Positions 10,955 through 15,843 of a DNA stretch of 44,843 bases are shown in pieces. The notes under the pieces are model-generated. The model saw only the letters and a list, made by a program, of their open reading frames with translations, was not told the origin of the DNA and made no database searches. The stretch's first letter is position 1. Every line of letters begins with the position of its first letter. The position numbers were made by a program, and so were the translations under genes. The stretch is from NCBI GenBank assembly GCA_028866945.1, contig JAGWHE010000006.1, positions 1 to 44,843 on the forward strand, given 5' to 3'. This DNA is from Nitrososphaerota archaeon (GTDB lineage: Archaea > Thermoproteota > Nitrososphaeria > Nitrososphaerales > Gagatemarchaeaceae).

Positions 10955-12532
10955 ATGAGCGCCTACTGGACGACGCTTTCTCACAATGGGGTGAACTTCC
11001 CCGAGCAGTATCAGCCCGAAGGGCTCTCCATCCGCGTCAAAGGGAAGCAGGTCCTACTCTCCCCGATGGCCGAGGAGATGGCATACGCCTTCGTCAAGAA
11101 GAAGGACACTCCCTACGTCCAGGACCCCGTGTTCAGGGCGAACTTCACGTCCGACTTCCTGCGGACGCTCCCCGACCACTGCAGGGGCGCCAAGTTCGAG
11201 GAACTGGACTTCTCCAGCCTGTACAAGAAGGTCGACGAGGAGAAGGCGGCAAAGGAGAGCATGACGAAGGAGGAGAAGAAGGCACTCGCAGCGTCGAGGA
11301 AGGAAAGGCGGGAGTCGCTGAAGGCGAGGTACGGCAAGGCTGTCCTCGACGGCAAGGAGGTGGACATCGCCAACTGGCTTGTGGAGCCCCCGGGGCTCTT
11401 CATGGGAAGGGGGCAGCACCCCCTCCGGGGAAAGTGGAAGCCGAGGGTCGGCCCCTCGGACGTCGTGCTCAACCTCGGCGAGTCTGCCAAGGTCCCTCCT
11501 GGTGAATGGAAGCAGGTGGTCAACGACCACAACTCAATGTGGATGGCGAAATGGGTCGACAAGCTGACTGACAAGGAGAAGTACGTATGGCTCCACGAGA
11601 GCTCCCCGCTTCAGCAGTCCAGGAGCAAGGCGAAGTACGACAACGCGAAGAAAGTGGGGAACAACCTCCAGAAGATCAGGTCAAAGATACAGAAGGACCT
11701 CGAGTCCAAGGACGGGACTGCCAGGCAGGTGGCGACGGTCTGCTATCTCATCGACGCCCTCGGGATGAGGGTAGGGGACGAGAAGGACGAAGACGAAGCC
11801 GACACGGTCGGCGCGAGCACACTCCGGGTAGAGCACGTGGCCCTCAAGGGCGACCTCGGCGAGTTCAAGTTCCTCGGGAAGGACAGCGTCAGCTGGCACA
11901 AGTCGGAGAGCCTTCCTCCCGCGGTCGCGAGGAACCTGAGGGAGTTCATGGCAGGCAAGAAGCCAGGGGACGACATCTTCCACAACGTAAGCTCCAGCAT
12001 GGTGAACCAGTTCCTCTCATCCATCGTCCCCGGCGTCACCGCCAAGGTGTTCAGGACGTATCACGCGACCGCCACCACCAGGGCCGCGCTCGGTTCGAAG
12101 GACATGCGCGACGCCGATGACCTGGACAAGCTCTACTTCGCCAAGGAGGCAAACCTCAGGGCCGCCGTCTTCTGCAACCACCAGCGGACCCCCCCGAAGA
12201 CCTGGGAGGATTCGCACCAGAAGAGGGTTGAGAAGCTCCAGGAGGCGGTCGCGAAGGGGGACCAGAAGAGGGTCCCGAAGCTCAAGCGCGAGCTCGACTT
12301 CTACGAGCGGACCAAGAACTACAACCTGAACACTTCGATGAAGAACTACATCGACCCCCGCGTCTTCAAGGCCTGGTGCGACCACGTCGGCCTCGACTGG
12401 GCGAAGGTGTACAGCAAGTCGCTGCAGAAGAAGTTCGCGTGGGTCCTCAGTTCGTCCGCCAAGTGGGAGCCGGTGAACCCGGAGCCCAAGCCACTACAGC
12501 GCTCACCGGGGCCGAGAGAGCACTCGCCATAG
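10955..12532 (+). CDS. DNA topoisomerase IB (eukaryotic type)
   Basis: The 525-residue protein relaxes supercoiled DNA through a 3'-phosphotyrosine intermediate. The N-terminal DNA-binding cap is seen from NGVNFPEQYQP through GLFMGRGQHPLRGKWK, as in eukaryotic Top1. The catalytic core includes ALGMRVGDEKDEDEADTVG, FLGKDSVSWHK and VFRTYHATATTRAAL (the RTY arginine region). A basic helical linker follows, then NYIDPRVFKAWC, in which Y465 is the expected nucleophile. Full-length family members of this type in archaea are known from Thaumarchaeota and relatives. The ATG at 10955 is preferred over GTG 10931 on promoter spacing. The 3' end overlaps the AIR-synthase-like gene by 30 bases, tail to tail. 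Confidence 0.9.
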   Translation: MSAYWTTLSHNGVNFPEQYQPEGLSIRVKGKQVLLSPMAEEMAYAFVKKKDTPYVQDPVFRANFTSDFLRTLPDHCRGAKFEELDFSSLYKKVDEEKAAKESMTKEEKKALAASRKERRESLKARYGKAVLDGKEVDIANWLVEPPGLFMGRGQHPLRGKWKPRVGPSDVVLNLGESAKVPPGEWKQVVNDHNSMWMAKWVDKLTDKEKYVWLHESSPLQQSRSKAKYDNAKKVGNNLQKIRSKIQKDLESKDGTARQVATVCYLIDALGMRVGDEKDEDEADTVGASTLRVEHVALKGDLGEFKFLGKDSVSWHKSESLPPAVARNLREFMAGKKPGDDIFHNVSSSMVNQFLSSIVPGVTAKVFRTYHATATTRAALGSKDMRDADDLDKLYFAKEANLRAAVFCNHQRTPPKTWEDSHQKRVEKLQEAVAKGDQKRVPKLKRELDFYERTKNYNLNTSMKNYIDPRVFKAWCDHVGLDWAKVYSKSLQKKFAWVLSSSAKWEPVNPEPKPLQRSPGPREHSP

Positions 12533-13525
12533 CTCGTCCTCGGGAGCCTCCCTGATATTCTCCTCAGTCCCATCCCTCCTGCGGAAGCTGCGCCCGCGCT
12601 GGCGGAACTCGCCGACCCGCGTCACCCTGCTGGTTGGGCTCACGGCGTCCATGACCAGCGCCTCGGACCCCTTGGCGACCGCGATAATGAGCGACCCGGA
12701 GCCTATGAGCCGCAGGGGGTCGATGGAGAGCGCGTCGCAGATTTCCCTGGTCTCGGGGGACACCGGAACCGCGTCCTCCTCGAGCACGAAGCCCAGCCCC
12801 GACGCGACCGACATCTCGTACACCGCGCCTAGGACGCCCCCCTCGGTGCAGTCGTGCATCCCGTGCACCCTGCCGGTGCCGAAGGCCGCCGTGGCTTCGG
12901 GCGTGACGTCTAGCAATTCGATGAGCCGCCTCGCAGAGCGCAGGGTCGCAGCCGGAAGCAGCCCCTCGAAGTCGTGCTCCCTGGCGAGTTCGCTGGTCCC
13001 TTCGAGCCCAGCCGTCTTCGTCATCAGGATCACGTCTCCGGCCTTGGCGCCGCCAGACGTGACGTACTTCTCGGCGAAGGCGAAGACGGTGACGACAACA
13101 ATCGGGTGGCTGAGCCCCGGAGTCACCTCGGTGTGGCCCCCGAGTATCGCGATGCCCGACTCCTTCGCCGCGGCGTCGACCTGCTTAGCAATGGCCCTGA
13201 GGTCCGCTTCCGACGACCCCTCCGGCAGCAGCACCACCGATTCGGCGAATTCCGGCCTGTTCCCACTCGTGGCTACGTCGTTGGCGCTCACCTTCACCGC
13301 GTACCTTCCGATCTGCTCCGTGACCCCTGAAATCGGATCGGACGACACGATCATGAAGCCGCGGGCAACCTTCACCGCCGCGAAGTCGACCCCTGCCCTG
13401 GGGGGCGTAGCCACCCTGTCAGACTCCCCACCAGTGAGCCTAAGCACTGTCGAGTCTAGCAGGTCGATGGGGATCTTCCCCAGCGGGAGGCGTCTCGTTG
13501 TCTCACTCCTTCGGCCCCGATTCAA
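12503..13525 (-). CDS. AIR synthase/HypE-like protein
   Basis: The 340-residue protein has the two-domain ATP-binding fold of the PurM/HypE/ThiL group: an N-terminal domain with DFAAVKVARGFMIVSSDPISG and YAVKVSANDVATSGNRPEF, then GGHTEVTPG, and a C-terminal domain with KAGDVILMTKTAGLEGT, a CTEGG motif and a late GSGSLIIAV. It is closest to the archaeal AIR-synthase-related proteins of unknown substrate rather than to PurM, ThiL or HypE proper; no HypE-type C-terminal PRIC is seen. The TTG at 13525 overlaps the end of the ECF gene by 23 bases, so the two are probably co-translated and may act on the same vitamin or precursor. Confidence 0.7.
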   Translation of the reverse strand: MNRGRRSETTRRLPLGKIPIDLLDSTVLRLTGGESDRVATPPRAGVDFAAVKVARGFMIVSSDPISGVTEQIGRYAVKVSANDVATSGNRPEFAESVVLLPEGSSEADLRAIAKQVDAAAKESGIAILGGHTEVTPGLSHPIVVVTVFAFAEKYVTSGGAKAGDVILMTKTAGLEGTSELAREHDFEGLLPAATLRSARRLIELLDVTPEATAAFGTGRVHGMHDCTEGGVLGAVYEMSVASGLGFVLEEDAVPVSPETREICDALSIDPLRLIGSGSLIIAVAKGSEALVMDAVSPTSRVTRVGEFRQRGRSFRRRDGTEENIREAPEDELWRVLSRPR

Positions 13526-14336
13526 TTCCCCCCATCCTCCTCCCCATGACGCTCCTGATGCTCCTCGTGAGGGGCACCGAGACCAGGAGGCCGATGAGCG
13601 CCTGGGCTACATTGAACGGGACTTCTGCGGCGGGGGCCAGTGAGGCAACGACTGCCGCGGGGGCGATAAGGGTAAGCACCGCTGACTCGTACAGGTAGTA
13701 CCCAGCCACCATCTCCGCCCCCCCAGCCAGGACCGACATGATGCTCTGCCCCGACTTCATTTCCACCCGGAGCCCGACGTACGAGATCACCACGAAGACC
13801 AGGGCGGCCGCGGCCGGCCAGAAGAGCGGCGGGACGTAGAGCTCGAGGGTCCATGCGGGTATGTTCCAGGCGCCGCCCAGGGTGATGGCAAAGCCGCCGG
13901 AGAGGAACGTCCATCCGACAAGCGCGAGGGCGACGGAGAAGGCGAGGCCGAACCCCACTGTGACGATGCGCCAGCCGCGTCTGGTCAACATGGGGAAGCT
14001 CCTCGTCCCCAGGTACCCCACGATGAACCCCTCCAGCCCCTTGATCACGAGGGTCCCCGGCGCGTAGTATGGATATCCCAGCGAGAGGTCGGAGATCATG
14101 GAGCCCACCCCACCGGCGAAGGCCCCGACATAGGGCCCCATGAGCAGGGCGCTCACGTAGACCATGATCTCGCCGACGTTGAAGTAGCCTGTCGTCGCCG
14201 GGATGTAGACCGAGAAGACAGACGTTGCCGCAGCGACGAAGGCGGTGAACACAGCCGTGGCGGCGACGGTGCGTGCGTCCGTCCTCCTGCGGTGCACAGT
14301 GGCCTCCTGAGGCTGAACCGGTTCGACGTTGGCCAT
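13503..14336 (-). CDS. ECF transporter S component-like membrane protein
   Basis: The 277-residue protein has six or more membrane helices. The region from GEIMVYVSALLMGPYVGAF through GYPYYAPGTLVIKGLEGF is typical of substrate-binding S components of energy-coupling factor vitamin transporters. The ATPase and T subunits are not in the window and would be shared modules elsewhere. The substrate cannot be read from sequence; coupling to an AIR-synthase-like gene hints at a vitamin or its precursor. The ATG at 14336 is 29-36 bases after a TATA box at 14365-14372; the frame continues upstream without stop, but that extension crosses the promoter and is rejected. Confidence 0.7.
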   Translation of the reverse strand: MANVEPVQPQEATVHRRRTDARTVAATAVFTAFVAAATSVFSVYIPATTGYFNVGEIMVYVSALLMGPYVGAFAGGVGSMISDLSLGYPYYAPGTLVIKGLEGFIVGYLGTRSFPMLTRRGWRIVTVGFGLAFSVALALVGWTFLSGGFAITLGGAWNIPAWTLELYVPPLFWPAAAALVFVVISYVGLRVEMKSGQSIMSVLAGGAEMVAGYYLYESAVLTLIAPAAVVASLAPAAEVPFNVAQALIGLLVSVPLTRSIRSVMGRRMGGIESGPKE

Positions 14337-14364
14337 TGAACAGACGGCCAGCGGTTCCCCTGGA

Positions 14365-14388
14365 CATATAAGTTCCAACCTATATATC
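14365..14388. promoter_or_regulatory. Overlapping divergent promoters
   Basis: Minus-strand TTATATGT (14365-14372) serves the ECF/AIR-synthase-like pair. Plus-strand TATATATC (14381-14388) lies 22-29 bases before the GTG at 14410. Only eight bases (GTTCCAAC) separate them, so the TFB recognition elements must overlap and the promoters probably exclude one another. The flanks look alike: AACTTATATG on one strand and AACCTATATA on the other. Confidence 0.65.
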
Positions 14389-14409: not shown

Positions 14410-15843
14410 GTGCCCCGGTTCAGGTGCGTAGCCTGCGCCCATGTCGCGGAGTCCCAGCGGCTCGCCCCCAGCTGCGTAAGGTGCGGCTCAGCCGTGGTCC
14501 TTTCCGACCCTCCCCCAGGCTCCCTCAGCCGCAGGCAGTTCGAGGACCTCCCTCCCGGGGTGTGGAGGTACGGGGCCCTGCTCGCCGGCGGAGGCCCGGA
14601 CGACGCTGTGTCACTCGGGGAAGGGGGGACGCCCCTACTGAAGGCAGAGCGCCTCGGAGCAGAGCTCGGGGTCGGGGGTCTCATGATCAAGGATGAGAGT
14701 CGGAACCCCACGGGTTCCTTCCTTGACCGCGGGTCCACTGTGCTGCTCACCCTCGCAAAGCGCCGCGGGGTGAAGGAGTGCGTCTGCCTCACCACAGGGA
14801 ACCTTGGGGCTTCCCTGGCTGCCTACTGCGCCAAGGCGGGGATCGACGCTCGCATCAGGGTGCACCCGAGCACCGACCGGGGGAAGCTCTACCAGATGCT
14901 CGCCTACGGCGCGGACATACAACCTTCGACCCGCCCGCTGCAAGGCGAGAGCTCTGGCGTCCTCCCGGTCACGGCAGGGAACCCCTACCTCCTCGAAGGG
15001 GAGAAGACCACCGGATTCGAGATCGTGCAGGACCTCGGTTGGGCGGCTCCCGACGTCATCGTCGTGCCTGTGGGGACGGGGGGTCACCTAAGCACCATCT
15101 GGCGCTCGATCGCCCTCCTCAGAGAGGCAGGATTGGTGGAGAGGTCCGAGTGCCGGCTCCTGGGAGTCCAGGTCAAGGGGGCCCAACCAGGGCCACGCGG
15201 CACGAAGAAGCCGACTGCTCGCAGACCTGGCGCCCCCCTCCTGACTGACCTGGAGGAGTCACTGCCCTACTTTGCGGCCGAGGCCGCGAAGGCGGTCGAA
15301 GAGTCGGGTGGGACGACCGTCTCGATCACCCCGGCTCAGACCATCGAGTCCACCCGTCTCCTCGCCGCCACAGAGGGGATCTTCGCCGAGCCTTCGTCCG
15401 CGTCGGTCGTGTCGGCGGTCAGGGACGCGGTTCAGAGGGGGATCGTAGGGGCGTCGGAGAGGGTGGTCTGCGTGGTCACCGGAGCCGGCCTGAAGGACAC
15501 GACCGCGGTTTCGCGCCTCGCGAGGGAGACCCGCAGGGTCGCGGCCGGGGAAGGCTACGCGCTCCCTTCACCCAAGATCGGAGACACCAAGCTCGCCCTG
15601 CTGCGGCTGCTCAGGGAGGGCCCGAGCTACGGGTACGAGATGTGGCAGGAGATAGGCTCCAGGCGCGAGATATCCACAGCGAGCATCTACCAGCACCTCC
15701 TGGAGCTCGAAGGGTTCTCGATGGTGAGGAAGAAGGGCGCGACGATCTCGAAAGGGAGGGAGAGGGTGGTGTATGAGCTGACGAGGAGGGGCGCCGACTT
15801 CCTCACGATCACAGGGAAGCTCAGAGCTTCGGAAAGTCGATGA
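14410..15843 (+). CDS. Threonine synthase-like protein lacking PLP lysine, fused to PadR
   Basis: The 477-residue protein starts with a four-cysteine ribbon (RCVACAH, SCVRCG) as in archaeal threonine synthases. A fold-type II PLP-enzyme domain follows with GEGGTPLL, KDESRNPTGSF, GNLGASLAAY, the phosphate loop VGTGGHLS and TGAGLKD. In the family the motif reads NPTGSFKDR, with the lysine forming the Schiff base to PLP; here residue 105 is Leu (codon CTT, 14722-14724). Residues about 390-477 are a PadR-type winged helix (LALLRLLREGPSYGYEMWQEI, STASIYQHLLELEGF). The likely role is a ligand-sensing transcription factor rather than an enzyme; this is inference. GTG 14410 is chosen because a TATA box ends 22 bases upstream; earlier in-frame codons precede that box. 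Confidence 0.8.
   Translation: MPRFRCVACAHVAESQRLAPSCVRCGSAVVLSDPPPGSLSRRQFEDLPPGVWRYGALLAGGGPDDAVSLGEGGTPLLKAERLGAELGVGGLMIKDESRNPTGSFLDRGSTVLLTLAKRRGVKECVCLTTGNLGASLAAYCAKAGIDARIRVHPSTDRGKLYQMLAYGADIQPSTRPLQGESSGVLPVTAGNPYLLEGEKTTGFEIVQDLGWAAPDVIVVPVGTGGHLSTIWRSIALLREAGLVERSECRLLGVQVKGAQPGPRGTKKPTARRPGAPLLTDLEESLPYFAAEAAKAVEESGGTTVSITPAQTIESTRLLAATEGIFAEPSSASVVSAVRDAVQRGIVGASERVVCVVTGAGLKDTTAVSRLARETRRVAAGEGYALPSPKIGDTKLALLRLLREGPSYGYEMWQEIGSRREISTASIYQHLLELEGFSMVRKKGATISKGRERVVYELTRRGADFLTITGKLRASESR

Follow-up and report, generated by a model that had tools for sequence, protein, structure and literature searches.

A threonine synthase fold joined to a PadR winged helix

The window, by which we mean the whole 44,843-nucleotide stretch of contig JAGWHE010000006.1 from a Nitrososphaerota archaeon that was analysed, contains a gene for a fusion of a threonine synthase-like (ThrC-like) domain to a PadR-type winged helix. 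It lies divergent to a gene for a predicted S component of an ECF transporter (ECF-S), with an imperfect palindrome between the two starts and an AIR-synthase-fold (AIRS-fold) gene downstream of the ECF-S gene (Table 1). The fusion frame begins with GTG and encodes 477 residues with no internal stop. An alternative start is the TTG at 14329; TATA-box spacing favours the GTG at 14410, and would also fit a leaderless fusion transcript.

Table 1. Features at the fusion locus (positions in the window)
Feature	Position	Strand	Basis or remark
AIR-synthase-fold (HypE/ThiL/SelD-like) protein, downstream of ECF-S	12503..13525	-	candidate B6 salvage enzyme
ECF transporter S component (PF07155, PdxU/HmpT family), predicted target	13503..14336	-	profile match
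Predicted operator GACATATAAG-N6-CCTATATATC, imperfect palindrome	14363..14388		sequence, conservation
Putative TATA box of the divergent ECF-S promoter, inside the predicted operator	14365..14372	-	inference
TATA box of the fusion promoter, inside the predicted operator	14380..14387	+	sequence
ThrC-like/PadR fusion regulator (predicted), 477 aa	14410..15843	+	ORF, Pfam, NCBIfam, AlphaFold2, Foldseek
Cys4 zinc-ribbon-like start (Cys6, 9, 22, 25)	14425..14484	+	sequence and alignment of 56 fusions
PALP fold-type II domain, residues 67-358	14608..15483	+	Pfam, E 1e-60
Codon 105 CTT (Leu) replacing the Schiff-base Lys	14722..14724	+	sequence, orthologues, relatives
PadR winged-helix domain, residues 397-465	15598..15804	+	Pfam, E 1e-12; model

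An earlier note on this DNA had described a protein that keeps the sequence marks of threonine synthase, has Leu in place of the PLP-binding lysine and ends in a PadR-type winged helix, and this description proved correct throughout. The Cys6/9/22/25 ribbon, TTGNLGAS, VGTGGH and GAGLKD are all found; residue 105 is Leu within NPTGSFLDR (canonically NPTGSFKDR); and Pfam places the PadR domain (PF03551) at the C-terminus with 48.4 bits against a cut-off of 27. In 56 aligned fusions, Cys6, 9 and 25 are invariant and Cys22 is present in at least 90%. An AlphaFold2 model of the protein (mean pLDDT 84, pTM 0.72) has the helices and wing strands of a winged helix at residues 392-476, and in Foldseek it falls on threonine synthases, with 2zsj as the top match (TM 0.81 by target length). 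The lysine-less ThrC-like/PadR fusion is real.

Its domain order is already represented in a public model, since NCBIfam NF004170 (PRK05638, 'threonine synthase') matches the protein end to end at residues 4-465, albeit with 241 bits and thus below the cut-off of 421. The name of this model appears doubtful and is likely a misannotation, because all nine loci that exceed the cut-off in the 299 genomes of our phylum sample carry Arg in place of the lysine. The window genome itself, which is 92% complete, has six PALP genes including the fusion, and we read the remaining five as dehydratases or racemases of the serine/threonine type, tryptophan synthases and a gene of the cysteine-synthase type. 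The earlier note had suggested looking for another, canonical thrC; none was found among the PALP genes of this 92% complete genome, and thrB was likewise not found. With both undetected, threonine is probably not made by the ThrB/ThrC route in this organism. Elsewhere, thrB was over its cut-off in 5 of 18 chosen genomes, and in G001, G015 and G020 it adjoins a Lys-bearing ThrC separate from the fusion. Among the matches listed, 68 of the 78 fusion genomes hit the fusion profile at least once more (at 1e-70); in G166 the extra match is a second fusion, and the others were read in part.

Loss of the Schiff-base lysine across the fusion family

Searching 31 genomes of the window's genus yielded full-length orthologues in 11 others, with 51-64% identity to the window protein; a fragment in G010 (residues 3-75) is uncounted. 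At residue 105 the twelve genus proteins, the window's included, have Met (7), Ile (4) or Leu (1), and none has Lys. A further 76 fusions from the phylum bring the number read to 88: 37 of the 76 have Arg, 38 have Leu, Ile, Met, Val, Thr or Ala, and one (L126) has Lys, so that the whole family divides into 37 Arg-type, 50 with one of these six residues (hereafter hydrophobic-type) and one Lys protein. The earlier note had proposed aligning this residue in archaeal fusions, and the loss it described holds in 87 of the 88, the lysine being kept in L126. A sequencing slip or a pseudogene as the source of Leu105 is ruled out by this conserved loss, since lysine is found in 0/11 of the other genus orthologues as against 61/61 complete stand-alone relatives, counted without a Lys-motif filter.

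Some border cases affect how these numbers are to be read. The relatives without a winged helix comprise 65 different sequences. The lysine is present in 61 of them; the remaining four are a truncated Arg-type gene of G124, present twice, and two Vulcanisaeta copies that are broken and have Met. The contig of the G124 gene (L128) ends before the winged helix, and the gene is still counted among the 88 fusions and the 78 fusion genomes. Three Vulcanisaeta drafts (L057-L059) contain fusion homologues with Met at the lysine site and a frame that is broken at a different place in each; the breaks are probably assembly errors, and these three fusions are excluded from the 88.

We also built a tree of 99 sequences from the PALP part of the alignment, with column 105 removed, by a quick search with SH-aLRT supports. 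In this tree 42 ThrC split off with a support of 94, 29 hydrophobic-type fusions lie on one side of a branch with a support of 98, and the Arg-type fusions together with L126 make up the remainder; three state changes suffice for residue 105. The 42 ThrC of the tree and of the pocket counts below were picked by their Lys motif, a filter that removed six rows, all of them Arg-type fusions; alignment A1 leaves out L126, L128 and near copies. The tree, which is unrooted, is compatible with a single fusion event and with lysine loss along two routes. The sole fusion read with a lysine, L126 (L194, G223), has neither an adjoining ECF-S gene nor the operator described below. Its lysine codon is AAG and the Arg codons at the site are AGG or AGA in 31 of the 36 read, so the lysine could be either a relic or the result of a reversion.

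In the threonine synthase of Thermus, roles are assigned to the Schiff-base Lys, to Arg160 at the substrate phosphate, to a Thr at the pyridine nitrogen and to an Asn at O3'. The positions that we take to correspond to the PLP-holding ones are kept in the fusions: Asn131 in 28/29 hydrophobic-type and 27/27 Arg-type proteins, Thr357 in 29/29 and 25/27, Gly222 in 28/29 and 27/27, and Gly224 in 56/56. The Arg of ThrC that aligns with residue 194, presumably the substrate-phosphate Arg, is present in 32 of the 42 ThrC (Tyr in the other 10) and in 0/56 fusions, the window protein having Leu194. Asn188 and Ser189 of ThrC are also mostly lost in the 56 fusions. Since the PLP contacts are kept and the substrate-side Arg is gone, the site looks, as judged from the alignment, fit for the cofactor and not for the substrate. 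The fusion thus shares with ThrC the whole fold and the PLP contacts, and differs from it in lacking the Schiff-base Lys and the substrate-side Arg, in its additional winged helix and in its vitamin B6 gene context.

Neighbouring genes linked to vitamin B6 and a predicted operator

The divergent gene of the window matches PF07155 with 109 bits (cut-off 26.7), and the sole solid sequence match in the PDB is 4hzu_S (E 1e-9), which we take to be HmpT. At HmpT pocket positions, 25 S components have Glu in 22 (Glu41), Lys in 23 (His84) and Glu in all 25 (Gln87). Pyridoxamine has been identified as the substrate of HmpT, earlier thought to carry hydroxymethylpyrimidine (PMC4860826). PdxU and PdxU2/HmpT, both PF07155, are listed among three characterised B6 transporters, with PdxST given as the only route of archaeal PLP synthesis (PMC9997740).

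We then compared 61 gene contexts of fusions, a set that excludes loci L151-L154 and one further batch of loci. An ECF-S gene lies no more than about 650 bp from the fusion in 39 of them (11/13 Arg-type, 28/47 hydrophobic-type, 0/1 Lys), and in three more, L165 from the window's genus, L176 and L204, the divergent neighbours are pdxS-pdxT. Counting PF07155 as B6 transport, B6 genes thus adjoin the fusion in 42/61 contexts. The other 19, with neither ECF-S nor pdxST adjoining, include contexts with an APC permease (L158-L160) and with genes of no evident bearing.

The predicted operator of the window reads GACATATAAG-TTCCAA-CCTATATATC. We searched for it as GAYATATARG-N6-CYTATATRTC with at most three mismatches, and because this pattern was drawn from the genus, only contexts outside the genus test it independently. 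The operator was found at 11 of the 12 genus fusions and in 24 of 35 other hydrophobic-type contexts, and was absent from the remaining 11 of the 35. It occurs in none of 13 Arg-type contexts and not at the Lys fusion, and a shared operator of the Arg clade was sought and not found. For the 29 sites of the first scan, 0/100 shuffles did as well; the seven remaining contexts were scanned over a wider stretch without shuffles and gave 6/7 at three mismatches or fewer. The spacer is 6 nt in every first-scan site at this threshold, across several families.

A scan of 36 whole genomes, chosen since most had shown the motif, found a site in 34, each time including the fusion promoter, together with 11 extra sites, 3 with one mismatch and 8 with two. 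The two-mismatch extras are at chance level, since a reversed-pattern control gave 19 matches, and the one inspected has no B6 gene. The one-mismatch extras comprise one inside an ORF (G184) and two before pdxS (G026, G076). In both of the latter genomes the site is the sole extra one and directly precedes pdxS on another contig than the fusion, in G076 at a contig end. None of the four extra sites inspected of the 11 stands before thrC. The fusion of G026 (on C48) adjoins a topoisomerase IB gene and the operator precedes pdxS-pdxT on C4 (L245), which by sequence suggests regulation at a distance. PdxS is found in 4 of the 31 genus genomes: the fusion-bearing G026 and G028 carry the site before pdxS, and the pdxS genes of G022 and G027 (no fusion found; 78 and 67% complete) have no operator site. 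A weaker site with three mismatches precedes pdxS of G052. G036, G052 and G034 have ECF-S genes that do not adjoin the fusion, and no site with up to three mismatches stands before these.

Co-occurrence and a candidate PLP-responsive repressor

In the phylum sample of 299 genomes, all at least 80% complete, the fusion is present in at least 78 (G211 and G232 by profile match alone), PF07155 in 162 and PdxS in 149. Among the matches listed, PF07155 is found in 78/78 fusion genomes versus 84/221 others, and PdxS in 10/78 versus 139/221; PdxS is further found in 30/162 PF07155-positive versus 119/137 PF07155-negative genomes. With 55 genomes of the same order removed, the figures become 78/78 versus 84/166 for PF07155 and 10/78 versus 84/166 for PdxS, again for fusions among the matches listed. 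The Fisher p-values of the three contrasts (3e-26, 5e-15 and 1e-34) are guides only, and overstate the case because the genomes are related. By these counts PF07155 behaves like a B6 importer across the phylum, and the fusion mostly accompanies genomes unable to make PLP. The association is looser within the window's genus, which contributes one genome to the 299: here PF07155 is found in 6/12 fusion genomes versus 6/19 without fusion, and PdxS in 2/12 versus 2/19. Six fusion genomes of the genus lack PF07155: in two of them (G026 and G028) the operator precedes pdxST, in three (G006, G012 and G025) the fusion adjoins an APC permease gene, and G030, which is 72% complete, shows neither arrangement.

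We consider it likely that in archaea the fusion is the counterpart of bacterial PdxR, built on a fold-type II domain without the lysine, and that it represses the uptake or the synthesis of B6 at high PLP. PLP or a close B6 vitamer would bind non-covalently in the kept cofactor pocket, where a threonine-synthase fold without its lysine would be unable to form the internal aldimine; such a non-covalent hold would suit a sensor, which must let go of its ligand. The PLP-bound dimer would grip the palindrome through its PadR winged helix and block TBP at both divergent promoters, so that in the window both the ECF-S B6 importer and the fusion's own gene would be shut off; a drop in PLP would release both promoters. 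In PLP-making relatives (G028, G060, G184, G026, G076) the fusion would instead stop the synthesis genes pdxS-pdxT. Here we infer ligand and DNA binding, the direction of control and the substrate of the ECF-S protein.

The earlier note had left the ligand open between threonine, O-phosphohomoserine and PLP. Gene context, the swap of pdxST for ECF-S, the operator before pdxS and the kept PLP contacts favour PLP or vitamin B6, and the lost substrate-side Arg speaks against the threonine compounds. A sensor of threonine or O-phosphohomoserine that controls thrC, with substrate or product bound in the old active site, would agree with the threonine-synthase fold and with six Arg-type fusions of one group (L101, L102, L105, L108, L115, L150) that stand divergent to a Lys-bearing thrC. 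However, at the four such loci viewed wider (L250, L251, L252 and L105) an ECF-S gene lies downstream, no more than 1.2 kb from the fusion, the window genome has no detected thrB or Lys ThrC, and the operator stands before pdxS and at none of the four inspected extra sites before thrC. With context, operator and the Arg lost in 56/56 fusions (together with most of Asn188/Ser189) against it, we set such a sensor aside as first choice and regard it as unlikely. It is quite unlikely that the fusion senses another ECF-S vitamin, be it hydroxymethylpyrimidine, thiamine or riboflavin. PF07155 is named after riboflavin, ThiL is among the proteins that the AIRS-fold neighbour resembles, these S components mostly have Lys where HmpT has His84, and HmpT was first thought to carry hydroxymethylpyrimidine (PMC4860826). 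Yet it is pdxST that replaces ECF-S beside the fusion and bears the operator, PF07155 and PdxS are largely mutually exclusive, and the putative sensor domain has a PLP-enzyme fold in which the PLP contacts are conserved.

Two further alternatives concern the palindrome and the activity of the protein. The half-sites read as archaeal TATA boxes and some contexts lack the palindrome, so the palindrome could be merely two such boxes back to back. This we find very unlikely, given that the 6-nt spacer is constant across several families at sites with three mismatches or fewer, that all 34 genomes with a site (chosen with the motif in mind) have it at the fusion promoter, and that in the genus pdxS has the site in two fusion genomes and lacks it in two without fusion. 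The fusion might also be a working if unusual threonine synthase whose added winged helix serves structure or autoregulation, as the coverage by NF004170 and the lysine of L126 would allow. Against such activity are the lost lysine (kept in 1/88 fusions), the lost substrate-side Arg and the lack of a detected thrB in the window genome, as well as the separate Lys ThrC beside thrB in G001, G015 and G020, the further profile matches in 68/78 fusion genomes among the matches listed, and the Arg at 9/9 loci over the NF004170 cut-off; it is highly improbable.

The proposed lysine-less repressor resembles known systems in parts. MocR proteins have a GntR winged helix ahead of a fold-type I aminotransferase domain and keep the lysine. 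PdxR of this family shares with the fusion a PLP-enzyme fold, a winged helix and a tie to PLP synthesis genes, whereas in the window protein, where PALP and PadR stand in place of aminotransferase and GntR, a fold-type II ThrC-like domain comes before the winged helix and the lysine is lost. The fusion would therefore act in the manner of PdxR without belonging to the MocR family. Enzyme domains joined to a helix-turn-helix that sense their own vitamin are a theme in archaea (RbkR, ThiR and BirA-type regulators), with other vitamins and other folds. PadR proteins typically bind palindromic operators at their own or a divergent promoter. Between the divergent starts here lies a conserved palindrome that is a candidate operator; the PadR domain, though over the PF03551 cut-off, here sits C-terminal to a 390-residue ligand domain. 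PdxR binds PLP, and MocR regulators are reported as 'not present in Archaea' (PMC5320631). In the open literature we found no paper describing a ThrC-PadR fusion as a regulator and no described archaeal vitamin B6 regulator. The earlier note had envisaged a separate invention, analogous to MocR/PdxR, from a fold-type II PLP enzyme without its lysine; a regulator of this kind is supported, and it belongs to a widespread archaeal family instead of being singular to this genome.

Taken as a whole, a somewhat broader proposal appears to us rather more probable than its contrary: that lysine loss made a fold-type II enzyme into a reversible, non-covalent PLP-responsive repressor of B6 uptake in auxotrophs and of PLP synthesis in prototrophs, convergent with PdxR, and that the operator points to an APC permease as a new B6 transporter and the neighbourhood to an AIRS-fold salvage enzyme. 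Many archaea would then seem to use an enzyme-derived B6 switch where bacteria use a quite different protein family, two unrelated PLP folds would each have been recruited as a B6 sensor, and a lysine-less PLP fold would have a use. The annotation model named 'threonine synthase' would be corrected, and predictions of B6 auxotrophy and transporters would follow for many uncultured archaea. The defined operator, the swap of target between importer and synthase and the single-residue signature make the question directly testable.

Lastly, several neighbouring genes deserve mention. In L158 (7541-9082), L159 and L160, from relatives without detected PdxS or PF07155, an APC-type permease gene takes the place of ECF-S behind the same operator, and is a candidate for a new B6 transporter. 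The AIRS-fold gene lies beside ECF-S in both clades (L155, L156, L157, L163, L164, L172, and also L184, L185, L186, L189 and L191); its product may be a kinase of B6 vitamers that has gone unrecognised, or some other salvage enzyme. G166 has two fusions, an Arg-type one beside ECF-S (L186) and an Ile-type one with the palindrome (L166) that adjoins acetyltransferase-like and EamA-like genes, perhaps two sensors with different regulons.
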